DNA of 43,770 nt, from positions 1 to 43,770 of the IMG/VR virus record IMGVR_UViG_3300024520_004058; one strand, given 5' to 3'. This DNA is from a virus. Positions 1,073 to 17,247 of the stretch are shown piece by piece. Made by a program: the position numbers and the translations under genes. Position 1 is the stretch's first letter, and the number at the start of each line of letters is the position of its first letter. Under the pieces are notes generated by a model. That model did no database searches. It was not told the origin of the DNA and saw nothing but the letters and a program-made list of their open reading frames with translations.

Positions 1073-1162
1073 TCGGGCAAAAAATGACGATCGGGACGAC
1101 CTGGCCTACCTGGCTGCTGCGCAGCGACTTATAGCTGCTGTCAGACATGGAGTCAGGGCGTA

Positions 1163-1223
1163 ACTGGCGCGGCGCTACGGGCATGTCTGACCCCAATGCT
1201 GCCAGTCACTGGCGCGGCGCTAC
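1163..1223 (+). repeat. 16-bp direct repeat pair upstream of the DUF559-like gene
   Basis: ACTGGCGCGGCGCTAC occurs at 1163-1178 and again, unchanged, at 1208-1223, 45 bases apart. Between and around the copies is an inverted pair GTCAGACATG (1140-1149) / CATGTCTGAC (1182-1191). The repeats could be iteron-like or operator-like. A longer reading frame from ATG 1147 passes through them, but it lacks a ribosome-binding site there, so I treat the repeats as non-coding. Confidence 0.5.
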
Positions 1224-1266
1224 TTGTAAAAGCGCACTTTCCGTGCTAAACTGGGAGGAGGCAAGG

Positions 1267-1635
1267 ATGAAATACCACGTAAAGGGCAATATGGCTCGAC
1301 ATTACAGCACTTATCGCAAACGAAAGCTTAAGCGCCCCTCCACTCCTCAAGAAGCCGCGATCTGGTCCTACCTGGCCCAACGCAAGACCGGCTTCAAGTG
1401 TACCCGCCAATATGACATCGGCGACTATTACGTAGACTTCGCCTTTCCCGACATTCGCCTCGTGGTCGAGATATGTGACTACGAGCGGAGTAAGCGGGCT
1501 AAGCACCTGGAAGCTCGGGGCTGGATCGTTCAGCAGTACACACATGCTGAATGCGATGAAGCTTATGGCTCGGTGGTCGCCAAGCATATTCACGACCTGG
1601 TGGCCAGTGTGGCACGCGAACGATACATCAACTAG
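1267..1635 (+). CDS. DUF559-like (Vsr/PD-(D/E)XK fold) endonuclease-like protein, active site altered
   Basis: The start at ATG 1267 is chosen for the strong ribosome-binding site GGGAGGAGG just upstream; a longer frame from 1147 would read through repeats and has no such site. The 122-residue product matches the DUF559 pattern: TPQEAAIW (residues 26-33), an Arg/Gln pair (residues 47-48), IGDYYVDF with Asp57, and LVVEIC with Glu68, followed by a Leu/Gly-rich helix-strand. DUF559 proteins belong to the very-short-patch-repair endonuclease fold. In most members the Glu strand reads E-x-D and is followed by a conserved His. Here it reads E-I-C-D and that His is absent, so cleavage activity is doubtful. 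It stands alone on the plus strand between leftward genes. Confidence 0.75.
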   Translation: MKYHVKGNMARHYSTYRKRKLKRPSTPQEAAIWSYLAQRKTGFKCTRQYDIGDYYVDFAFPDIRLVVEICDYERSKRAKHLEARGWIVQQYTHAECDEAYGSVVAKHIHDLVASVARERYIN

Positions 1636-2590: not shown

Positions 2591-2747
2591 GTTGTGCCTC
2601 CTGGCGCGCCTGCCAGCCCCAAGTAAACTCACCACCACCAAGGATCTCATTGGTTAATTGCTTTAGCACCCTGGCAACTTCTCGCTTGCTGTTCGAGCCT
2701 ATCTTGACTGCGAACTCTACTGGCCTCACAGGCTTGTCCATAATCAT
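2583..2747 (-). CDS. small hypothetical protein, 54 aa
   Basis: A short gene with ATGA overlap to the gene before it (start ATG 2747, previous stop 2744) and an 8-base overlap with the gene after it. The ribosome-binding site AAGGAGGGGG lies within the last codons of the upstream gene. The second in-frame ATG at 2741 is an equally possible start. The product is basic in its first half (Lys/Arg) and has a Gly-Gly-Gly turn near residue 38 followed by FTWGWQ. I recognise no family. Tight packing on both sides is the main support. Confidence 0.6.
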   Translation of the reverse strand: MIMDKPVRPVEFAVKIGSNSKREVARVLKQLTNEILGGGEFTWGWQARQEAQHD

Positions 2748-2932
2748 CCCCCCTCCTTGAGCGCAGCGCAGATTATCTCGTACTCAGTATCAATGTGCGC
2801 CTGAGTTATAGGCCCCGGAGCGTGGACCATGATCTGCTCATACCGCCCCTTGGCCGATACCAGCGCCGTCCGCAGCCGATCGTTCTCTGCTTGGAGTTCG
2901 TCTATCTTTACCTGTCGCCAGTGCTCGGTCAT
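2744..2932 (-). CDS. coiled-coil 'AEN-KLR-KGRY' module protein, 62 aa
   Basis: Starts at ATG 2932 in an ATGA overlap with the upstream stop; the ribosome-binding site is made from the upstream gene's last codons. The product is a short helix with leucine-zipper spacing (ELQAENDRLRTAL), then SAKGRYEQIM, then a motif ending in EYEIICAALKEGG. The same order, AENxxLRxAL-KGRY-IM-EY-ALKEG, forms the C-terminal third of the riboflavin-kinase-like protein at 5036-5533, so the two are paralogous modules. A role as an oligomerisation or docking piece is inference. Its own last codons (AAG GAG GGG) supply the ribosome-binding site for the next gene. Confidence 0.7.
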   Translation of the reverse strand: MTEHWRQVKIDELQAENDRLRTALVSAKGRYEQIMVHAPGPITQAHIDTEYEIICAALKEGG

Positions 2933-3321
2933 CCCCCCTCCTTGAGTAGGCTTTCCAATTGGTTCGCGAACCCTTCAAGCTGTGCAGCTCTCGCAACCCT
3001 AGTGAAATTGCTGTTAGCCTCAGCCCTCCAAGCAGTGATCTTTGCTTCCAGCGCCGCCCGTAGCGCATCTGCCTCAGCTTCCGCCCTCTGAGCCCTTGCT
3101 TCCGCCCGATCCCTGTCGCGCTTGGCTCGGTCCCGTTCAAAGGCGAACTGACTGAGCTTGTTTCGCTCTTTGGATAGCTCGGCATTGGACGCCCGCAGCT
3201 TGGCGTTCTCGGCTTGAAGGTGGCGCACATCTGCCACCATTGGTGGGACGATGGTTGACCCACACCCCCCGCACTTTCCTGCGTAGACTATTTCCCCGCA
3301 CTCGCATTTCCATGTTGCCAT
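2929..3321 (-). CDS. zinc-ribbon plus coiled-coil protein, 130 aa
   Basis: Start chosen at ATG 3321 (MATWKCECG); AAGGAGG lies 10 bases upstream, and TTG 3327 is a possible alternative. The N-terminus holds C-x-C-G and C-x-x-C-G pairs (CECG, KCGGCGS), a small zinc ribbon at about residues 6-21. It is followed by a long charged coiled coil (residues 35-105) rich in Arg/Glu/Ala with a repeated RDRAEARAQRAEAEAD type pattern. The end reads LLKEGG, and those codons form the next gene's ribosome-binding site. No enzyme motif is present. It belongs to the same tightly overlapped leftward cassette. Confidence 0.7.
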   Translation of the reverse strand: MATWKCECGEIVYAGKCGGCGSTIVPPMVADVRHLQAENAKLRASNAELSKERNKLSQFAFERDRAKRDRDRAEARAQRAEAEADALRAALEAKITAWRAEANSNFTRVARAAQLEGFANQLESLLKEGG

Positions 3322-3323
3322 AA

Positions 3324-3584
3324 TCAATCGCCCTCCTTGAGCAGTTTTATCCAGCGGGGCATAACGTCCCAGATATCGATGGGGTCCTCGTTGCACGAGT
3401 CACAGTGGGGCAGGCGACACTTGTATCCCGAACAGTGAGCGGTGCCAATATGCTCCATGGATTCTTTCAGTGCCGCTCGTAGCTTGGCGTTCTCTTCCCT
3501 CGCTTCTTGAAGTTGTCGGTTTCTGGCCGTCTCAGAGTCCATTGTAGACGCGTCCGCAATTGTTGTTCTGATGTGTCTAATCAT
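3324..3584 (-). CDS. hypothetical coiled-coil/cysteine protein, 86 aa
   Basis: Start at ATG 3584 (MIRHIRTTI) behind GAGAGG; a frame extending to 3674 has no ribosome-binding site and overlaps a better small reading frame. The product has a coiled-coil segment with EENAKLRAAL (about residues 29-38), the same motif as in neighbouring cassette proteins. A cysteine/histidine cluster (HCSGYKCRLPHCDSC, about residues 49-63) could bind a metal. It ends in LLKEGD, whose codons carry the next gene's ribosome-binding site. I do not recognise a family. Confidence 0.65.
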   Translation of the reverse strand: MIRHIRTTIADASTMDSETARNRQLQEAREENAKLRAALKESMEHIGTAHCSGYKCRLPHCDSCNEDPIDIWDVMPRWIKLLKEGD

Positions 3585-3664
3585 TTTGTAACCTCTCTCA
3601 TTAGCCTTGTTATACGTTGCGCTGCGTCCAATGCGGCACGACCCGGATTGTGGCTCGGCATCAT
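3581..3664 (-). CDS. possible small gene, 27 aa
   Basis: A 28-codon frame from ATG 3664 ends in an exact ATGA overlap with the 86-residue gene downstream. It would fill most of an otherwise unexplained 118-base gap in a densely packed operon. The product is a basic amphipathic helix (AALDAAQRITRLMREV). There is no strong ribosome-binding site, so it may instead be a leader that couples translation. Low confidence. Confidence 0.35.
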   Translation of the reverse strand: MMPSHNPGRAALDAAQRITRLMREVTK

Positions 3665-3702
3665 CTCTATCCATCGCGGCTCGTTTGGTGTCGTCTTATT
3701 CT

Positions 3703-3957
3703 TCACTCAGCCACCGCAATTACCTTATCACAAATTAAACACACCCGCCCCCTTGCGCTCGGCCACGCCTTACGCTCGCAATCTGGGCAGAGGTAGCCTG
3801 TTAGGTCTACCCCATCGCCATCGCCATAGCCATAGCCAGAGCCATCGCCATCGCCATAGCCAGAGCCATCGCCATAGCCATAGCCGTAGCCAGAGCCATC
3901 GCCATCGCCACAGCCAGAGCCGTAGCCAGAGCCAGAGCCATAGCCTACCTCTGCCAT
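3703..3957 (-). CDS. Gly-rich low-complexity protein with C-terminal zinc knuckle, copy A, 84 aa
   Basis: After MAEV, about 45 residues are Gly alternating with Ser, Tyr or Asp (GYGSGSGYGSG type). Then comes DLTGYLCPDC and ERKAWPSARGRVCLICDK, two CxxC pairs that look like a zinc ribbon. The Gly region is encoded by a hexanucleotide repeat. It starts at ATG 3957, 13 bases inside the end of the preceding copy, behind only a weak G-rich site. It is one of two tandem copies of the same gene. Low-complexity Gly/Tyr/Ser tails in other systems can drive self-association, but any such role here is inference. I know no named family with this layout. Confidence 0.65.
   Translation of the reverse strand: MAEVGYGSGSGYGSGCGDGDGSGYGYGYGDGSGYGDGDGSGYGYGDGDGVDLTGYLCPDCERKAWPSARGRVCLICDKVIAVAE
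3811..3943. repeat. hexanucleotide repeat tract, copy A
   Basis: About 130 bases built from GCCATA, GCCAGA and GCCATC, with rarer GCCGTA and GCCACA, in varied order. On the coding (minus) strand they read GGC followed by TAT, TCT or GAT codons. The tract keeps the reading frame for any number of units. Confidence 0.85.
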
Positions 3958-4247
3958 ACCGGAACCCCGTCAATTACCTTATCACAAATTAAACAAACCC
4001 TACCCCTGGCACTTGGCCACGCCTTGCGCTCGCAGTTCGGACAAATGTATCCAGTTAAGTCGGGTTCAGAGCCATCGCCAGAGCCAGAGCCAGAGCCATA
4101 GCCAGAGCCATAGCCAGAGCCAGCGCCATAGCCATAGTCAGAGCCAGAGCCAGAGCCAGAGCCAGAGCCATAGCCAGAGCCATCGCCATCGCCAGAGCCA
4201 GAGCCAGAGCCATCGCCATAGCCAGAGCCATCGCTTACCTCTGCCAT
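3945..4247 (-). CDS. Gly-rich low-complexity protein with zinc knuckle, copy B, chimeric C-terminus, 100 aa
   Basis: The layout is that of copy A: MAEV, a longer Gly-[Ser/Tyr/Asp] tract (about 56 residues), DLTGYICPNC and ERKAWPSARGRVCLICDK. After CDKVI it departs from copy A and ends DGVPVWQR, which is exactly the C-terminus of the DUF6948-like protein encoded just upstream. This is what a tandem duplication would leave at its junction: the end of copy B is fused to the end of the upstream gene. The start at ATG 4247 lies inside the 3' end of that upstream gene. Expression level is uncertain because the ribosome-binding site is weak. Confidence 0.65.
   Translation of the reverse strand: MAEVSDGSGYGDGSGSGSGDGDGSGYGSGSGSGSGSDYGYGAGSGYGSGYGSGSGSGDGSEPDLTGYICPNCERKAWPSARGRVCLICDKVIDGVPVWQR
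4066..4233. repeat. hexanucleotide repeat tract, copy B
   Basis: About 165 bases of the same GCCAGA/GCCATA/GCCATC units as copy A, but richer in GCCAGA (Gly-Ser) and slightly longer. Unit order differs from copy A, so the tracts have diverged since duplication. Confidence 0.85.
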
Positions 4248-4528
4248 ACCGGAACCCCGTCAATTGCCTCGGTTGCAACTTCTGTGCAAGGCGTTATTTC
4301 CTTTGCATCAATCAACAGCTTATACGGCACGGGGACAGTAAATTTACACTCCGCTGTCAGATTCGGCGCGGTTGCCAATTGCTCAATTGCCGCGGCCCCA
4401 TCCCAGTACCATATGCGCCGACAGTCGGTTAGTTCGACCTCAAGCCCTACCCTGCTCTCTAGTGTCCCATAAAAAACACCGCTTTTCTCACAGCGCACAA
4501 TTACTCGCTTTCCTGTCAAATCTCTCAT
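4235..4528 (-). CDS. DUF6948-like phage protein, 97 aa
   Basis: Start at ATG 4528 (MRDLTGKRVIVRC) behind AAGGAGGG. The pattern VIVRCEKSGVFYGTLESR, then EVELTDCRRIWYWDGA, then AIEQLA, and an end in VPVW, matches small phage proteins that I recall as DUF6948. Their function is unknown. It is probably a compact beta-rich cytoplasmic protein. The last codons (IDGVPVWQR, stop) also contain the start of the first Gly-rich gene in another frame, and that segment was copied in the duplication next door. The start overlaps the upstream stop as ATGA. Confidence 0.75.
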   Translation of the reverse strand: MRDLTGKRVIVRCEKSGVFYGTLESRVGLEVELTDCRRIWYWDGAAAIEQLATAPNLTAECKFTVPVPYKLLIDAKEITPCTEVATEAIDGVPVWQR

Positions 4529-4845
4529 GCTTCCCTCCTTGTGCTTAATCGTCCACCGCCAGGGGGTGCAACACAAGGCCCCGTACGCGGTTTGATAGCC
4601 TCAGCCACTGCCGACTCCGCACCAGAGATGATACGAGCAGCATGTATGCGCCCTTCGTTCATACCCTGATGCGATACCCCATTGTCGAAGTCAGCCGCTT
4701 CGCTACATAGGTAGTGTAGATCACAGTACGCATTGTAGAGCAGTTCGTTGCGCTTACGTAAATCCCGCACCTCGTCTCTTAGTTGAATCTCAGTCATGTA
4801 CGGGACCTCCGCTGACCTCCGCTCACCACATGTCTCTTCAGCCAT
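4525..4845 (-). CDS. hypothetical protein, 106 aa
   Basis: Start at ATG 4845 (MAEETCGERR), two codons after an in-frame GTG (4851) that overlaps the upstream stop. An alternative start at ATG 4797 (MTEIQLRDEV) has its own GGAGG 8 bases upstream and may be the real one. The middle has a helical, charged segment (QLRDEVRDLRKRNELL) of the coiled-coil type seen in neighbours. It is followed by LYNAYCDLHYLCSEAADFDNG and an Ala-rich helix, and the end is Pro/Gly/Arg-rich. I do not recognise a family. It ends in an ATGA overlap with the DUF6948-like gene. Confidence 0.6.
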   Translation of the reverse strand: MAEETCGERRSAEVPYMTEIQLRDEVRDLRKRNELLYNAYCDLHYLCSEAADFDNGVSHQGMNEGRIHAARIISGAESAVAEAIKPRTGPCVAPPGGGRLSTRREA

Positions 4846-4847
4846 AA

Positions 4848-5033
4848 TCACTCTTCCTCCTTTTCAAAACGTAAAATCTCATATCCGACGACCTCTGTTT
4901 GCTTCTCCCAGATACACCCGCAGCCACCCATGCAGTAATACCGCTCCCCATCAGTGCTATCCATCTCGTCTGAGCCGCAATTAGGGCAGAGCCGCCCTTC
5001 GGCCTTGATGAACTCCTGTTGCGTAATTTCCAT
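4848..5033 (-). CDS. small zinc-ribbon protein, 61 aa
   Basis: Starts at ATG 5033 (MEITQQEF); GTG 5039, overlapping the upstream stop, is an alternative. The product has LCPNCGSDEM, then YYCMGGCGCIW, giving C-x-x-C-G and C-x-x-x-C-x-C pairs separated by about 15 residues, a typical small zinc ribbon (residues 16-42). The tail is acidic (FEKEEE). Such phage proteins often bind nucleic acid or transcription proteins, but no partner can be named here. The upstream gene's KEGE codons supply the ribosome-binding site. Confidence 0.7.
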   Translation of the reverse strand: MEITQQEFIKAEGRLCPNCGSDEMDSTDGERYYCMGGCGCIWEKQTEVVGYEILRFEKEEE

Positions 5034-5035
5034 AA

Positions 5036-5533
5036 TCACTCGCCCTCCTTGAGCGCATCCAGCACCATCTTGTATTCCTCATCCACATTGGCCTTAGTCA
5101 TGCACCCTGTCGAATAAACAGGATGTCCTGCGCTGCCCACCCGTGATCGCATGATCAAATGATAGCGCCCCTTGACGCAGGTCAGCGCAGCCCGCAGCTT
5201 GGCGTTCTCGACCTCTGCGGGCGCCCCCACCGTCATCAGCCGGGCGAAGTTGATCAACCAATCGCTGGGCACCTGGCCAGTCACCAAGACCTCCAGCCTG
5301 GAGGCGTGCATGCTCCTATCAGCGTTCCAGCCAATGACATGCACTTCCACAATGCCGCTGCCGTCAGCGGTGATCACGCACCCCCGATACTCCATGTAGC
5401 CATCGATGGAGATCAGGGAGCCCACATAGGCCCCCGGCGCCAGGCCCTTGTCTACGAGATTTGCGGTGGGCCAGCCGCGCCCCCGCCCGAGCCCCTTGCC
5501 CTTAACGGGCGTTCCAGTGATTCTGATTTTCAT
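5036..5533 (-). CDS. riboflavin-kinase-like domain fused to a coiled-coil KGRY module, 165 aa
   Basis: Residues 8-90 follow the riboflavin kinase (flavokinase, RibF C-terminal) pattern: a Gly/Arg-rich turn KGKGLGRGRGWPTAN with the Mg/ATP-binding PTAN at 22-25, LAPGAYVGSL, a short YRGCV strand, then IVEVHVIGW with Glu63 in the position of the catalytic E-x-H strand. The FAD-synthetase (adenylyltransferase) half found in bacterial RibF is absent. Residues 107-165 repeat the module of the 62-residue protein at 2744-2932 (VENAKLRAAL, KGRYHLIM, EEYKMVLDALKEGE). Known family members phosphorylate riboflavin to FMN; activity here is inferred from motifs only. The start overlaps the previous stop as TGATG. 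Confidence 0.65.
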   Translation of the reverse strand: MKIRITGTPVKGKGLGRGRGWPTANLVDKGLAPGAYVGSLISIDGYMEYRGCVITADGSGIVEVHVIGWNADRSMHASRLEVLVTGQVPSDWLINFARLMTVGAPAEVENAKLRAALTCVKGRYHLIMRSRVGSAGHPVYSTGCMTKANVDEEYKMVLDALKEGE

Positions 5534-5778
5534 CAGTAGGTCGCCTCCATCCGTGTGCCTGCTTTACCTGTGACAATGATGCGCTTTGGCAACTCCACGA
5601 ACTCTGAGGGCTTAATGCGCATCTTCTTACGTGAGAGTAAGAGTATCGCCATGGCGGGTGAGATTTTAATCGCCAACGTGACGCCCCACAAGAAGGGTTG
5701 GTTCTCCTTCAACTCGGAAAACATCCGGTAGCACCGATTTTGCTTGTTCAGTTTCTTCTGTAGATCTTTCGTATTCAT
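5533..5778 (-). CDS. hypothetical protein, 81 aa
   Basis: Starts at ATG 5778 in an ATGA overlap with the upstream gene. The N-terminus is basic (KDLQKKLNKQNR). A hydrophobic stretch follows (about residues 29-49, FLWGVTLAIKISPAMAILLL) that could be a membrane segment, although a lysine sits inside it. The C-terminal half is again basic. I do not recognise a family. It sits directly before the riboflavin-kinase-like gene with a one-base stop/start overlap. Confidence 0.6.
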   Translation of the reverse strand: MNTKDLQKKLNKQNRCYRMFSELKENQPFLWGVTLAIKISPAMAILLLSRKKMRIKPSEFVELPKRIIVTGKAGTRMEATY

Positions 5779-6230
5779 GATTGGTCCTTAAGTGCTTGAC
5801 GTAATTGTCTGATGGCGGCTTCTACATCCGCCGTGGCGTCCAGAACGGCTGAGGATTCGTTCAGCAGTGCCAGGACTTGGTCGATCGTCAAGTCCATACC
5901 TGTCGCCCCGTCACGATAGTAGTGGCCATACTTGCCTGTGTGCATCTCGTAGCGCGGTTTACCTTTGGGCGTATGGGTGATGCCACCGTATGGGGGTTCG
6001 GCAGGGGGCTCGGGCCAGGCATCGTATGTCCTCCGCCAAACCTCGGCGGAACATACGTTGGTGTGCATCTCATTGGGCTGACTACCACAATCACAGGGAG
6101 GCTGTGCGCGCCCCGCCATGTTAAACCAGGCGTACGCACCTCCACAGTTCGTTGTAGCCTGGCAGATTGTACCGATCTCGGTAAGTTTTGGTGCGGGCAT
6201 GCCGCAGATCTTACATTTCATTTTAAGCAT
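5775..6230 (-). CDS. cysteine-rich putative zinc-binding protein, 151 aa
   Basis: Start at ATG 6230 behind AAAGGAGCAGCAC, a ribosome-binding context shared with several other genes in this window. The first 65 residues contain CxxC (CKIC), further Cys at CQATTNC, and PPCDCGSQPNEMHTNVC, enough for one or two zinc sites. A Pro-rich linker follows (about residues 73-95). The C-terminal third is helical and acidic, with regular Leu/Ala spacing. No family is recognised. It is separated from its upstream neighbour by 12 bases. Confidence 0.65.
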   Translation of the reverse strand: MLKMKCKICGMPAPKLTEIGTICQATTNCGGAYAWFNMAGRAQPPCDCGSQPNEMHTNVCSAEVWRRTYDAWPEPPAEPPYGGITHTPKGKPRYEMHTGKYGHYYRDGATGMDLTIDQVLALLNESSAVLDATADVEAAIRQLRQALKDQS

Positions 6231-6242
6231 TGTGCTGCTCCT

Positions 6243-6653
6243 TTAATTCTTCAATCGTTTATAAATGTTCAAACAGGACTTGCAGGTAGCCTCCTCTATG
6301 TTGGTCGTCATTTTTCTACCGTACAAAACGCCACAGTGAGGAAACTCCCCGTTTGTCATGTGCATCTTGCGTGAGTCCACGCAGGCCTGGTAGTCCTCAA
6401 ACCCCATAGCCCGCATCAAGGTCGTCTCCATATCGATGGCGATGCGCAGTGCCCGCACCTGGCGTATTTTCCAGGCGGAATAAACGTCAAACTCCGCCGC
6501 CATGCGATAATGCCCGCCACCGGGGCGAGCCACCTTAATCATCATGCGAAAGGTCAGGTCTGTGCGCGTCACCGTGAGTACGCCAGAGGTGTTACGGTCG
6601 ATGACTCTAAACAATTCTGGCACATCGTCTGGGCGTAGGTCAATGAGTGTCAT
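6243..6653 (-). CDS. hypothetical protein with C-terminal Cys pairs, 136 aa
   Basis: Starts at ATG 6653, overlapping the stop of the primase/helicase gene as ATGA, so it is probably translationally coupled to it. The first 70 residues look like a beta-rich domain (VLTVTRTDLTFRMMIKV). A helical part follows (residues 60-85). The C-terminus has PHCGVLYGRK and CKSCLNIYK, where CxxC plus His/Cys could bind zinc. I do not recognise a family. Its position suggests a role linked to replication, but that is only context. Confidence 0.6.
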   Translation of the reverse strand: MTLIDLRPDDVPELFRVIDRNTSGVLTVTRTDLTFRMMIKVARPGGGHYRMAAEFDVYSAWKIRQVRALRIAIDMETTLMRAMGFEDYQACVDSRKMHMTNGEFPHCGVLYGRKMTTNIEEATCKSCLNIYKRLKN

Positions 6654-8617
6654 CTCGGCACCTCCAGTCTGTTGCGCCCGTTGTGCGCGTACTCCACCAC
6701 TTCGCCCTCTGCCAAAAGTTCGGCTACCAGGGTTTGTATGGTCTTGGCCGACAAAGCGCCCCCGCCAAAGGGGTCAACGATGTTCTGCCCGCTGATAGGC
6801 CTGTGCCCGCCAGCAGAAGTACCTGCCTTGTAGTAATCGCCCTCCACGGCAGAGGTGGTGATATAAGCCATGATGGCGTCTTTACTCTCCTGGTCGACGG
6901 CAACTTCGTCCACCACGACAAAAGCGCCCTTGGAGTACCGCACGGGTATCCCTGTGGGTTTCTGGCCGTAGTTACTCTTGTCAACGTCCAGGCGCATAAC
7001 CCCTTCGCGGTCGTCCTGCTGCAGAACCCACATCATGCGCACCGCCCCCTGCCAAGCTGTGCTGCCGGAGTAGGCATGCTCCACGCTCTTTGGTGGGTGT
7101 GCCAGGACCAGTATCCAGCAGTTGTGATCCAGGGCGAGCCGGAACAGGATCTGCTTTGTAAACTGGCCGACTGCCGTACGGTCATTCTCTTCGCCATGGA
7201 AGACATCCATAAGTGTATCGATCACCAGCACTTTGTACTCAGACCCCATCGAGGCCAGCTTACTCTTGAGCTGAAAGTAGAAGGGGCCCGGCACGATCTT
7301 ATTGCCCTCCATCTGCCCTATAGCATTGTCCTCACCTATGCGGGGCAGGATCTGCAGCATACCGGGCTCAATGGCGTCCATTATCTCGGGGTCCTGATCG
7401 ATGATGGCCCAGCGGCGCAAGGCGATCACATTTTTAGGATCTTCGCACATGGCCATGAGTACCCGTGTCGGCTCCAGCACGGGCAAACCCAGCCAGGGCA
7501 TGCCTGCCGCCAGAGCGATACCAAGCTGTAGTGAGAGGAGCGACTTGCCGCCACCCCCTCGGCCAGTGAACAAGGTAAGTGAGGGCTCTTTAAGCACCCA
7601 GTCCTGCACGACCCAGGTCAGGGGCGGCGGATTGTCCTCGATGTCGCAGAAGTCCAGGGAGTCCAGGGTAAACTCCGTGAAGATGTCCGTAAAGGCCTGC
7701 ACGCCCACAGGGCATGCCGGATTGAAGTACCACAAGGTCTGCAGCTTGTCGGTCTCAGGTCGGATCGCCCCCGGCAGCCGGGACAGCCGCGAAGGGTTCA
7801 AACATTTACGGTCGGCGCCCAGCGGCGTCAGGTAGCCATCATAGAGTAGCTGTTTGACCTGCACGTCCCAGGACTGAGCCGTCTCATCGACTTTAAGCCA
7901 CACATGTAGGCTCTTGCCCCCAGAGTCAATAACAGCCGCTACAGGGGCTCCCTGTGCGATCATATACGACCAGAAGCCCGCCTGGGACTTCTTGTCCTTA
8001 TCGTCAAACTCACAGACTACATACTCATGGCGCAGTATTTCTGCGTCACAACGTGATGAGAGTAGGGGGTTGGGGCATATGTAGGGGCCGACATGCTCAG
8101 TCAGCGGGACAGGGGTGGTGGCGTACTTATCGCCTGAGCAGAGCATGTCGGTAGGGCGAAACAGCGAGAGGATCGCATTGGTGGGGTCGTTGACTGCCTG
8201 CAGGGTGGACGCTCGCAGGGGGAGCCCCCTACTGGCCAACGTAGCGTAGACGCTGCCCTCCACCTGTGCGGGGCCCCGCTTACGGGCCGCTGAGTGGACC
8301 CGGTTGCATACGGGGCGCCGAGTCCAGTCGGCCTCAGTGGTCCAGTCGGAGATGTACGCCACGCCAGGGGCATACTTGGCAAAGGTCTGCCAACCCCCAC
8401 CCTGCTGGTTACGCTCGTAGGCTCGGTCTACCTGGTGGTCGAAGTCGTCTCGATCACCGTGCGTTTGGCTGCTCCATTCTCTGAAGGGCTCCCGCCCCTC
8501 CTCGCCTGCCAGGTGCGCTACCGCACAGGCGATCTCCCACCACTCTTGTTCTGAGCAATTGGGGTCAATAATGTCTAGTATCGTACGGATATTATCCGCG
8601 TTGGGTTGTGCGGTCAC
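6650..8617 (-). CDS. bifunctional PrimPol-like primase / RepA-type helicase, 655 aa
   Basis: Starts at GTG 8617 behind AAAAAGGAGCAGCC; no ATG fits. Residues 20-90 resemble a PriCT-2 primase accessory domain (EQEWWEIACAVAH, REWSSQTHGD). Residues 195-295 look like an archaeo-eukaryotic-type primase core: E-F-D at 203-205, SGGKSLH at 232-238, NPSRLSRLPGA near 274-284. From about 335 there is a RecA-fold helicase/ATPase of the RepA/AAA_25 type, with Walker A GRGGGGKS (352-359) and Walker B VLVIDT near 463-468. It would make primers and unwind DNA at the phage fork. It is the first gene of the leftward operon. Confidence 0.85.
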   Translation of the reverse strand: MTAQPNADNIRTILDIIDPNCSEQEWWEIACAVAHLAGEEGREPFREWSSQTHGDRDDFDHQVDRAYERNQQGGGWQTFAKYAPGVAYISDWTTEADWTRRPVCNRVHSAARKRGPAQVEGSVYATLASRGLPLRASTLQAVNDPTNAILSLFRPTDMLCSGDKYATTPVPLTEHVGPYICPNPLLSSRCDAEILRHEYVVCEFDDKDKKSQAGFWSYMIAQGAPVAAVIDSGGKSLHVWLKVDETAQSWDVQVKQLLYDGYLTPLGADRKCLNPSRLSRLPGAIRPETDKLQTLWYFNPACPVGVQAFTDIFTEFTLDSLDFCDIEDNPPPLTWVVQDWVLKEPSLTLFTGRGGGGKSLLSLQLGIALAAGMPWLGLPVLEPTRVLMAMCEDPKNVIALRRWAIIDQDPEIMDAIEPGMLQILPRIGEDNAIGQMEGNKIVPGPFYFQLKSKLASMGSEYKVLVIDTLMDVFHGEENDRTAVGQFTKQILFRLALDHNCWILVLAHPPKSVEHAYSGSTAWQGAVRMMWVLQQDDREGVMRLDVDKSNYGQKPTGIPVRYSKGAFVVVDEVAVDQESKDAIMAYITTSAVEGDYYKAGTSAGGHRPISGQNIVDPFGGGALSAKTIQTLVAELLAEGEVVEYAHNGRNRLEVPR

Positions 8618-10550: not shown

Positions 10551-10631
10551 GTTGACGTAGCGTAATGGCCACGCCCCGGTGCAGCCCTTTCGGGTCGGGT
10601 TAAGTAGGTTCGATTCCTGCCGTCAACACCA
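10551..10631 (+). tRNA. tRNA-like element with encoded CCA, atypical middle
   Basis: A 7-bp acceptor GTTGACG/CGTCAAC closes the element and is followed by A and CCA (10628-10631). TA at positions 8-9, a 4-bp D stem GCGT/ACGC with AATGGCC loop, and a T arm GTAGG-TTCGATT-CCTGC are all present. The 29 bases between the D and T stems do not form a standard anticodon arm. The best fit is TTCGGGT as a proline-CGG-like loop in the stem GCCCT/CGGGT, with one T-C mismatch and about 8 extra bases before it. Total length is 81, longer than a normal short-variable-loop tRNA. It may be a working odd tRNA, a decaying one, or a tRNA mimic. Confidence 0.5.
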
Positions 10632-14900: not shown

Positions 14901-14910
14901 CCTAACACAT

Positions 14911-14945
14911 GGCGCGGGACATTCAAATGTCCCGCGCCTTTTTTA
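14911..14945 (+). terminator. rho-independent terminator after the SSB gene
   Basis: GGCGCGGGACATT (14911-14923) pairs with AATGTCCCGCGCC (14926-14938) over 13 bp with almost no loop, followed by TTTTTT. It would reduce read-through from SSB into the polymerase genes. I see no strong promoter between it and the polymerase, so partial read-through is probably used. Confidence 0.9.
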
Positions 14946-14958
14946 TTTGGAGCAGCAC

Positions 14959-15048
14959 ATGCAAAAAGTTATACATAAGTTCGGGTCGCCCGACACCATC
15001 GAGGGTGCCATTGAGAGTCAGAGGGGGCCGACTGATGCCAAGCGGTAA
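14959..15048 (+). CDS. possible small gene, 29 aa
   Basis: ATG 14959 follows TTGGAGCAGCAC, the same ribosome-binding context that precedes at least five larger genes here. The 29-residue product is mixed in charge (MQKVIHKFGS, then DTIEGAIESQRG). Its stop lies 14 bases inside the start of the polymerase exonuclease half, so it may couple translation of that gene. Short length keeps confidence moderate. Confidence 0.5.
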   Translation: MQKVIHKFGSPDTIEGAIESQRGPTDAKR

Positions 15049-15934
15049 AGTAACAATTGATTTTGAGACGCGCAGTCAGATAGACCTACGCAAGGTGGGG
15101 GCGCACCGTTACGCAGCGGACCCCACGACCGAGGTACTCTGCCTGGCAGCACGCAAGGATCAGGACGACCCCGTCATCTGGATCAACGATAAGTTCAACA
15201 TCTTTGAGGCGGACCTACCCCTCATCGGTTTCCAGAAGATCGTACACCTCATCCGCAAGTCCGCCATTGTAGAGGCGCACAACGCAGAGTTCGAGTATGC
15301 GATCTGGAATGAATGTCTCACGCGCTACGGCGCCCCGCCACTACCGCTGGAGCAGTTCCGCTGCAGTGCGGCAATGGCGGCAGCCATGGGTCTACCCCGT
15401 AGTCTCAAGGACGTAGCCAAGTGCCTGGGTAGCCCCATCGACAAGGACATGGGTGGGCACAAGCTCATGCTTAAGATGTGTAAGCCGCGCGCCTCGCGCA
15501 AGGCTGAGCGTGAAGCTGAGCCAGACAGAGATGAGGTCGCGAACCCCTACTGGTGGGAAGAACCTGAGGATATTATCCGCCTGGCAGAGTATTGCCTTAC
15601 GGACATCGAGGCCGAGGAGTGGATCAGTGACGCGATGCCTTGCCTCTCCCCAGACGAGCAGGCGGTGTGGTTGGCCACGGCACGCATGAACCAACGTGGT
15701 GTGCAGGCTGACCTGGCGAGCTGCCTGACCATGGAGACGATGGTCATAAACTACAAGGAAGTGCTGCAGCAGGAGTGCCAGGAGCTCACAGGCGTTCGCG
15801 GCACGCAGACGACCAAGTTGCTGGCCTGGCTGAACGAACATGCCGACCATGAGATCCCCAACATACAAAAAGAAACATTGGAACAGGAGCTACTAAAAGA
15901 TGACGCTATCAGAAGAGCTGAGCTACAAGGCTAA
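15035..15934 (+). CDS. family-A DNA polymerase, N-terminal (3'-5' exonuclease) half of a split gene, 299 aa
   Basis: Start at ATG 15035 (MPSGKVTIDFETRS) after GAGGGGG; an upstream in-frame ATG at 14909 falls in the terminator. Exonuclease motif I is IDFETR (Asp9, Glu11), motif II VEAHNAEFEYAIW, motif III EYCLTDIEAEE, so proofreading looks intact. The end enters the polymerase thumb region (RGTQTTKLLAWLNEH, then ETLEQELLKDD) and stops at AIRRAELQG. Intact relatives carry on into an LPDxVRRxLELR helix, which here is found in the separate gene at 16084. The polymerase is therefore split near that junction, and both halves have their own ribosome-binding sites. Confidence 0.85.
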   Translation: MPSGKVTIDFETRSQIDLRKVGAHRYAADPTTEVLCLAARKDQDDPVIWINDKFNIFEADLPLIGFQKIVHLIRKSAIVEAHNAEFEYAIWNECLTRYGAPPLPLEQFRCSAAMAAAMGLPRSLKDVAKCLGSPIDKDMGGHKLMLKMCKPRASRKAEREAEPDRDEVANPYWWEEPEDIIRLAEYCLTDIEAEEWISDAMPCLSPDEQAVWLATARMNQRGVQADLASCLTMETMVINYKEVLQQECQELTGVRGTQTTKLLAWLNEHADHEIPNIQKETLEQELLKDDAIRRAELQG

Positions 15935-16091
15935 GTTACGTGCGATGAGCAGCGAGGAGCTGTGCGCCCACTACGCTATCATGCGTGAAGAGATTTACAC
16001 ATTCCACACCGCCAAGCAGGTGGGCAATATTGATAAGCAGGTGCGTTCCCCTGGCCGGGTCGCGATCACGGGGAGGAGAGACTATGAGTAA
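15900..16091 (+). CDS. small gene lying in the break between the two polymerase halves, 63 aa
   Basis: A frame from ATG 15900 overlaps the last 35 bases of the exonuclease half and the first 8 of the polymerase half. The product is helical and charged (SEELSYKAKLRAMSSEELCA and an Arg/Lys-rich end); I recognise no homing-endonuclease, intein or intron motif. A ribosome-binding site is weak (AGGAG about 8 bases upstream, inside the polymerase codons). It may be a real small gene or filler left by the event that split the polymerase. Confidence 0.5.
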   Translation: MTLSEELSYKAKLRAMSSEELCAHYAIMREEIYTFHTAKQVGNIDKQVRSPGRVAITGRRDYE

Positions 16092-17247
16092 GCCCTTACC
16101 TGATGAGGTGCGCCGCGCCATTGAGCTGCGCCTGCAGATTGCAAAATCATCAACATCTAAGTTGACTGCAATCTCCCAGCGTGTCTGCTCAGATGACCGG
16201 GTGCGCGGTACGCTGCTCTACCACGGGGCGCACACGGGTCGCTGGTCTGGGTCGGGCGTGCAGTTGCACAACCTACCCTCGCGATCACTGGCCGTAAAGC
16301 ACACTGCCCTGGAAGGCGTGCTGGAGGCCTATGCCCTCGGCGGTGTAGACTTCCTGCGCGTGGTGTACGATGACCCCATGGCTGTCGTCTCTGCGCTCAT
16401 CCGCCCACTACTAATTGCGGCGCCAGGTAAGACCCTGGTGTGTGCAGACTATAGCTCCATCGAGGGGCGGGTCCTGGCCTGGCTGGCGGGAGAGGATTGG
16501 GTCGTGGACTCCTATAAGAAGGGGCTCGATCCGTACATCGTGGCCGCACTCACCATCTTTGGCTGTAGCTATGACGAGGTCACGCCCAACCAACGCCAGA
16601 TAGGTAAGGTCGCGGAGCTTGCCTGTGGCTACCAGGGAGGCAAGAACGCCTACCTGCGTTTCGCCAAGGACTACGGCATGAGCTTCGAGCCAGAGGATGC
16701 GCAGAAGATCGTTGATGATTGGCGGGAGGGTCGCCCGCAGATACGTGCGTACTGGTACAACATTGGTGAGTGCTTTATGAACGCCATTCGCCAACAGGGC
16801 AAGGTGTTCAAGTACCGGGGCATTCAGTTCCGCAAGACCAAACGCGGGTACCTGCAGATCAAGCTACCCTCCGGTCGGTGGCTGTGGTATCCCAAGGCCA
16901 GGATTGAGCAGCGCGTGCCAGTGTGGGGTGGGGCGAAGCGAGACTGTGCGACCTACTTTGGTAAGGACGACAAGGGCAAGTGGTGCCAGCTCTCTACCTA
17001 CGGGGGTAAGCTCACAGAGAACATCGTCCAGGCTGTCGCGCGGGACCTGCTCAGCGAGGCTAAGCTGCGCTGTGAGGTGGAGGGCTTGTCGATGGTCCTC
17101 TCCGTACATGATGAGATCGTGCTAGAAGAGGCGATCCGCACGGCGAACCTGCAGCAACTCATAGATGTAATGTGCGATTCTCGCGACTGGGCGGACGGGT
17201 TGCCTGTCGAAGCGGATGGTTGGATAGGTAAGAGGTACAGAAAATGA
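16084..17247 (+). CDS. family-A DNA polymerase, C-terminal (polymerase) half of a split gene, 387 aa
   Basis: Start at ATG 16084 (MSKPLPDEVRR) behind GGGGAGGAGAG, the strongest site nearby. The product begins in the thumb helix (LPDEVRRAIELRLQIAKSST) and covers palm and fingers: HGAHTGRWSGSGVQLHNLPS, motif A VCADYSSIEGRVLAW (catalytic Asp), motif B RQIGKVAELACGYQGG (O-helix Arg, Lys and Tyr), and motif C LSVHDEIVLE (catalytic Asp-Glu). All catalytic residues are present. It must act with the exonuclease half at 15035 to make a complete enzyme, presumably as a two-chain complex. The stop overlaps the next start as ATGA. Confidence 0.88.
   Translation: MSKPLPDEVRRAIELRLQIAKSSTSKLTAISQRVCSDDRVRGTLLYHGAHTGRWSGSGVQLHNLPSRSLAVKHTALEGVLEAYALGGVDFLRVVYDDPMAVVSALIRPLLIAAPGKTLVCADYSSIEGRVLAWLAGEDWVVDSYKKGLDPYIVAALTIFGCSYDEVTPNQRQIGKVAELACGYQGGKNAYLRFAKDYGMSFEPEDAQKIVDDWREGRPQIRAYWYNIGECFMNAIRQQGKVFKYRGIQFRKTKRGYLQIKLPSGRWLWYPKARIEQRVPVWGGAKRDCATYFGKDDKGKWCQLSTYGGKLTENIVQAVARDLLSEAKLRCEVEGLSMVLSVHDEIVLEEAIRTANLQQLIDVMCDSRDWADGLPVEADGWIGKRYRK

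Follow-up and report, generated by a model that had tools for sequence, protein, structure and literature searches.

The window, meaning the whole stretch of DNA analysed here, is the IMG/VR virus record IMGVR_UViG_3300024520_004058 with its 43,770 bases. It contains a podovirus-like gene set (terminase, head-tail connector, GP7-type capsid, tail protein, primase/helicase, DNA polymerase A (PolA), RuvC and a SNF2 helicase). ORF 5036-5533 on the minus strand sits among these viral genes, in a bona fide viral genome, and has the location of a viral accessory gene. It belongs to a co-directional series of overlapping genes: its start overlaps the stop of the upstream gene at 5533, while its own stop overlaps the start of the next gene, either the GTG at 5039 or the ATG at 5033. 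The codon-position GC of the ORF (0.59/0.47/0.77) is close to that of the neighbouring primase gene (0.62/0.44/0.72), a pattern that the antisense ORF does not fit. No Rfam match was obtained within the window. The locus comprises the following features:

5036..5533, minus strand: 165-aa ORF with ATG start, riboflavin kinase (RFK)-like domain N-terminal and phage module C-terminal
5282..5527, minus strand: RFK-like (flavokinase, PF01687) domain, residues 3-84, from Pfam and hhalign
5459..5500, minus strand: GKGLGRGRGWPTAN, residues 12-25, FlapI and PTAN Mg-ATP motif, from gapless alignment to cellular RFK GxxLGRTIGFPTAN
5339..5350, minus strand: VEVH, residues 62-65, E63 being aligned with the catalytic base E268 of C. 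ammoniagenes FADS
5039..5215, minus strand: C-terminal phage module, residues 107-165, homologous to ORF 2744-2932(-)
2744..2932, minus strand: 62-aa ORF representing the same C-terminal module alone, from homology to residues 107-164
5033..5054, minus strand: CTCAAGGAGGgcgagTGATTATG junction, in which the terminal LKEGE codons include the next gene's Shine-Dalgarno-like AAGGAGG
6650..8617, minus strand: primase/helicase, from Pfam AAA_25 and PriCT_2 and PHROG primase

Homology to riboflavin kinases

A preliminary description of this DNA had proposed a riboflavin-kinase-family domain at residues 8-90, combined with a loss of the FAD synthetase (adenylyltransferase) half. The family assignment is borne out by profile comparisons. 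The curated gathering score of PF01687 (Flavokinase) is 19.6 bits, which the ORF 5036-5533 protein exceeds with 27.9 bits (E 3e-6; residues 3-82 on profile positions 5-91 of 124) and with 28.2 bits in a record-wide search. An HMM built from 36 RFK domains, those of 35 cellular RibF loci (most of ordinary RibF length) and of E. coli RibF, gave 30.2 bits for the protein and 8.2 bits for the best of 5,000 shuffles, and hhalign of the single sequence against 25 RibF domains returned 97.8% (E 1.3e-12, residues 3-84). The cellular loci were chosen by patterns and tblastn searches partly derived from the phage protein and therefore lean towards it, a bias of which the Pfam result is free. By pairwise BLASTP only 22 residues in the PTAN region were aligned with E. 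coli RibF (E 3e-4), and the protein scores far under the cut-offs of the NCBIfam RibF equivalogs, so that it has to be regarded as a distant member. Both results would also suit a chance similarity restricted to the GRGRGWPTAN-like motif, but this reading is extremely improbable, as the profile matches cover residues 3-84 including the E-x-H strand and lie above all 5,000 shuffles. Phmmer against PDB sequences yielded chance matches only. In a Pfam scan up to E 10 the archaeal CTP-dependent riboflavin kinase family was unmatched, while Flavokinase and Monellin were listed, the latter being spurious. The FMN-adenylyltransferase (FAD_syn) module PF06574 has no match anywhere in the record, in agreement with the proposed loss of this half. 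Judged from these comparisons, the ORF 5036-5533 protein carries a true RFK-superfamily domain; of the span first given the RFK similarity stands, but the recognisable part extends over about residues 3-84, and the C-terminal, flavin-closing third is unmatched.

The GRGRGWPTAN turn and the E-x-H strand described before are both present, at residues 16-25 and as VEVH at residues 62-65. The kept residues comprise G7, G12, G16, R17, G20 and P22-T23-A24-N25 as well as G34, Y36, E63, H65 and D72, corresponding to the consensus GxGxGRxxG[W]PTAN with W21 where F is usual. Identity to cellular RFKs amounts to 22-35%, and conservation of the core residues at this level would be expected from selection on the phosphoryl-transfer site. 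In the C. ammoniagenes FAD synthetase (CaFADS) PTAN comprises residues 207-210 and E268 is the catalytic base, while the flavin site is closed by FlapI, FlapII, L6c and helix a1c; L6c and a1c belong to the core closing the isoalloxazine site (PMC5428420). W21 is no objection to RFK function, since CaFADS F206W retains RFK activity (PMC5428420) and GWPTAN is also found in three Hymenobacter RibFs (L040, L054, L064).

The RFK module of bacterial RibF (E. coli; C. ammoniagenes FADS, PDB 2X0K/5A89) has in common with the phage protein the predicted fold, the FlapI glycines, PTAN, the base Glu and the H and D of the ExHxxDF strand region. In contrast to RibF, the phage protein is without adenylyltransferase and has an extra C-terminal phage module. 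Its FlapII is shortened, with NIGxRPT absent by sequence and NIG lost; this by itself does not disqualify the protein, as FlapII is also short in some Bacteroidales RibFs (L035, L061, L066). Moreover, a Pro aligns with the Arg of LRxExxF, which is invariant in all cellular RFKs aligned, the Tyr of DLYG is lost, and helix a1c has no recognisable sequence counterpart. The flavin-closing elements FlapII, L6c and a1c thus appear to be missing in their cellular form, and other helices may substitute for them; it is in the Arg and a1c, both apparently lost, that the protein really departs from cellular RFKs. The monofunctional RFKs of human (1NB0) and S. pombe (1N06) are also stand-alone and of similar size (Z 9.5-9.7 with the RibF-guided model described below), but they have a complete flavin-closing half, whereas the phage protein fits the bacterial FlapI spacing gap-free.

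An AlphaFold2 model was built from a 38-row alignment rich in RibF. Residues ∼1-99 mostly reached pLDDT 76-92, with block means of 61-92 over residues 1-100; residues 11-20 (FlapI, 61) and 91-100 (66) formed the low blocks, and the C-terminus was poor. In a Foldseek search with this RibF-guided model RFKs rank first in the PDB, the best matches being those of C. ammoniagenes, S. pombe, human and pneumococcus, and in VIA-align the bacterial, yeast and human RFKs reached Z 8-10 over 110-120 residues. The next-best kind, V-ATPase barrels with Z ∼6, lies ∼3-4 Z units under the RFK rows and was dismissed as common barrel resemblance. Riboflavin kinases, and no other beta-barrel family, are the best matches of this model, as the preliminary assignment would predict; since RibF sequences shaped the model, we take the structural match as consistency and not as independent proof. 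A single-sequence AlphaFold2 model (mean pLDDT 49) was too poor for an independent check.

Flavokinase domains in other viruses

The earlier remark that flavin-metabolism genes are not usual in phage accessory operons goes too far, since genes for flavin cofactors are rare in phages and other viruses but not absent: a riboflavin kinase is encoded by the huge phage LR756502 and another by Indivirus, and one phage annotation lists ribF (PMC13384950). Mentions of riboflavin-related genes in the literature searched are confined to virome or phage annotation lists (PMC6008428, PMC8876492, PMC9040601, PMC13384950), and an experimentally tested phage riboflavin kinase was not found there. No close relatives of the ORF 5036-5533 protein were detected in the viral contigs or bacterial genomes searched, and 50,697 phage records gave chance matches only. 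Likewise, neither the neighbouring primase nor ORF 5775-6230 has close relatives in IMG/VR. The flavokinase domain is absent from the terminase relatives in IMG/VR (0/50, many of those records being fragments) and from the two nearest annotated podoviruses, MW202640 and MW202722 (terminase 48/47%), and for this reason the RFK gene looks like a sporadic acquisition. Several candidate matches were rejected. Most RibF matches in records labelled as phage represent host DNA, with a bifunctional RibF near full length on short unannotated or bacterial-looking records; the match in Streptomyces phage DrGrey is antisense to an annotated CDS and, at E 4, due to chance; and the DNA-pattern matches L002, L008-L020, L022, L023, L025 and L026 are not RFK domains.

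Distant phage RFK domains do exist, in LR756502 and in one terminase-linked lineage of IMG/VR contigs:

L003:13415-14098, minus strand: RFK-like gene of the terminase-linked lineage
L021:260-757, plus strand: RFK-like gene of the same lineage
L024:977-1474, plus strand: RFK-like gene of the same lineage
L028:2992-3636 of LR756502.1 (642-kb huge phage), plus strand: stand-alone RFK, 214 aa, 82 bits in the record search

In the contigs L003, L021 and L024 the RFK-like gene is followed by a conserved 185/186-aa gene and then by the gene for the terminase large subunit. Like ORF 5036-5533 they encode a phage RFK-like domain that stands alone, has PTAN and lacks the LRxE Arg. In contrast to it they adjoin the terminase gene, the protein is extended N-terminally in L021 and L024 and carries a long insert in L003, and Ser replaces the catalytic Glu. 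This loss of the Glu shows that phage versions can give up catalysis. The insert interrupts the L003 barrel and has weak ParB-like similarity (phrog_723, E 0.008). The LR756502.1 RFK resembles the ORF 5036-5533 protein in being phage-encoded and without FAD synthetase, but its C-terminal fusion domain is a different, Cys-rich one, and the two are not close: it retains the R of KIRNQ and the a1c region, and ATAN replaces PTAN. This Cys-rich domain may be a mobile module, because a relative on viral contig L147 matches only the C-terminal part (residues 131-213). The riboflavin kinase of Indivirus ILV1 (BFVD A0A1V0SD03; Foldseek E 5.7e-3) is a virus-encoded RFK fold too, but belongs to a giant virus of eukaryotes and to a 321-aa protein.

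Possible functions of the phage protein

We tentatively favour, with a probability of about 0.45, that the ORF 5036-5533 protein is a divergent stand-alone ATP-Mg-dependent riboflavin kinase of altered efficiency. The RFK domain would bind Mg-ATP and a flavin and, using Glu63, would phosphorylate riboflavin at its ribityl 5'-hydroxyl with ATP as donor, so that FMN is formed. A short loop and helices, possibly including the phage module, would take the place of the host-type FlapII NIGxRPT, L6c LRxE and helix a1c, and due to this replacement of the flavin-closing elements we propose a reduced or altered efficiency. Production of FMN or depletion of riboflavin could then shift the host flavin pool during infection. 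Among the record proteins scanned (some small ORFs lay outside the scan) none is a flavoenzyme needing FMN, and the flavin-dependent thymidylate synthase ThyX was not found in the record as a user of FMN.

A binding-only pseudoenzyme ranks close behind the active kinase and is a possibility to be taken seriously, if somewhat less probable. The RFK barrel would in this case hold a nucleotide and/or flavin and act as a sensor of this ligand or as a scaffold for protein binding, and the phage module would supply the output by oligomerisation or partner binding. The flavin-closing half missing by sequence is consistent with such a role, and so are the separate lineage in which PTAN persists next to a Ser in place of the catalytic Glu, the ParB-like insert that the L003 barrel holds, and the C-terminal module that also stands alone in the 62-aa ORF 2744-2932. 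However, E63, T23, N25 and the FlapI glycines are all kept although a pure scaffold could dispense with them, and no partner or ligand is known. The combination of a kept catalytic core with replaced flavin-contacting elements would also suit a same-fold kinase for another alcohol, be it a modified flavin or some other small molecule; the new specificity would then be determined by the rebuilt C-terminal third. We consider this unlikely, as no PF01687 member with another substrate was found in this analysis and, to our knowledge, none is known.

The Glu equivalent to CaFADS E268 could have been kept for a different reason. In the head-to-tail assembly of CaFADS this RFK base is salt-bridged to R66 of the adenylyltransferase module of the neighbour (PMC5428420), and the phage protein might imitate RFK and dock on the bifunctional RibF of the host via the RFK/FMN-adenylyltransferase interface, altering FMN and FAD synthesis; it does not, however, conserve the L6c and a1c residues of this interface, and we regard such docking as highly unlikely. 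It is also rather unlikely, though less so, that the RFK barrel was acquired by phages more than once and remodelled in its flavin-closing half to form a flavin- or nucleotide-responsive regulator or a decoy subunit of host FAD synthetase instead of a metabolic enzyme. The ORF 5036-5533 protein, with intact catalytic residues and a phage helix module, would then represent an intermediate form.

The protein adds a new variant, unusually placed, to a domain family already known. A minimal RFK in which the flavin-closing part is replaced would make it possible to test which parts of the enzyme can be spared, and whether the FMN/FAD pool of the host is manipulated by a small phage. Should the protein be inactive, it would clearly exemplify the reuse of a vitamin-kinase barrel by viruses.

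The phage module and the overlapping genes

The phage cassette module that the preliminary description had seen attached to the domain is real: residues 107-164 match the protein of ORF 2744-2932(-) with 41% identity (E 1e-12), and the module DNA in the two genes is 72% identical over 60 nt (repeat family D6). Shorter similarity of the ENAKLRAA type is found in ORFs 2929-3396 and 3324-3674. Junctions equivalent to that at 5033..5054 occur at 2744, 2929 and 3324 (families D4/D7). Since the common ending LKEG[G/D/E] coincides in four genes (2744-5054, minus strand) with CTCAAGGAGG ahead of the next start codon, CTCAAGGAGG at the LKEG ends is probably kept as ribosome-binding site of the next overlapping gene. 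LKEG[GED] as a conserved peptide motif was rejected, because the embedded AAGGAGG ribosome-binding site explains it better.

Within the same region, tandem near-duplicate genes at 3703-4576 (minus strand) encode Gly/Ser/Tyr/Asp-rich repeats followed by a zinc-binding-like tail, CPxCERKAWPSARGRVCLICDKVI. ORFs 3945-4247 and 4235-4576 have the identical end IDGVPVWQR, whose DNA includes the start of the next gene.

Elsewhere in the record, ARAGORN reported a single tRNA-like gene at 10551-10631 (plus strand), with a two-base and unassigned anticodon. The DNA polymerase A at 14909-17247 (plus strand) looks split: the upstream ORF 14909-15934 holds an exonuclease-like part, judged by eye and without Pfam match, the polymerase part restarts at 16084, and a 63-aa ORF (15900-16091) in another frame lies in between. 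A DUF559 (PF04480) protein is encoded at 1147-1635 (plus strand), opposite to the accessory gene run, and its N-terminus contains an NWRGAT/HWRGAT stretch twice.
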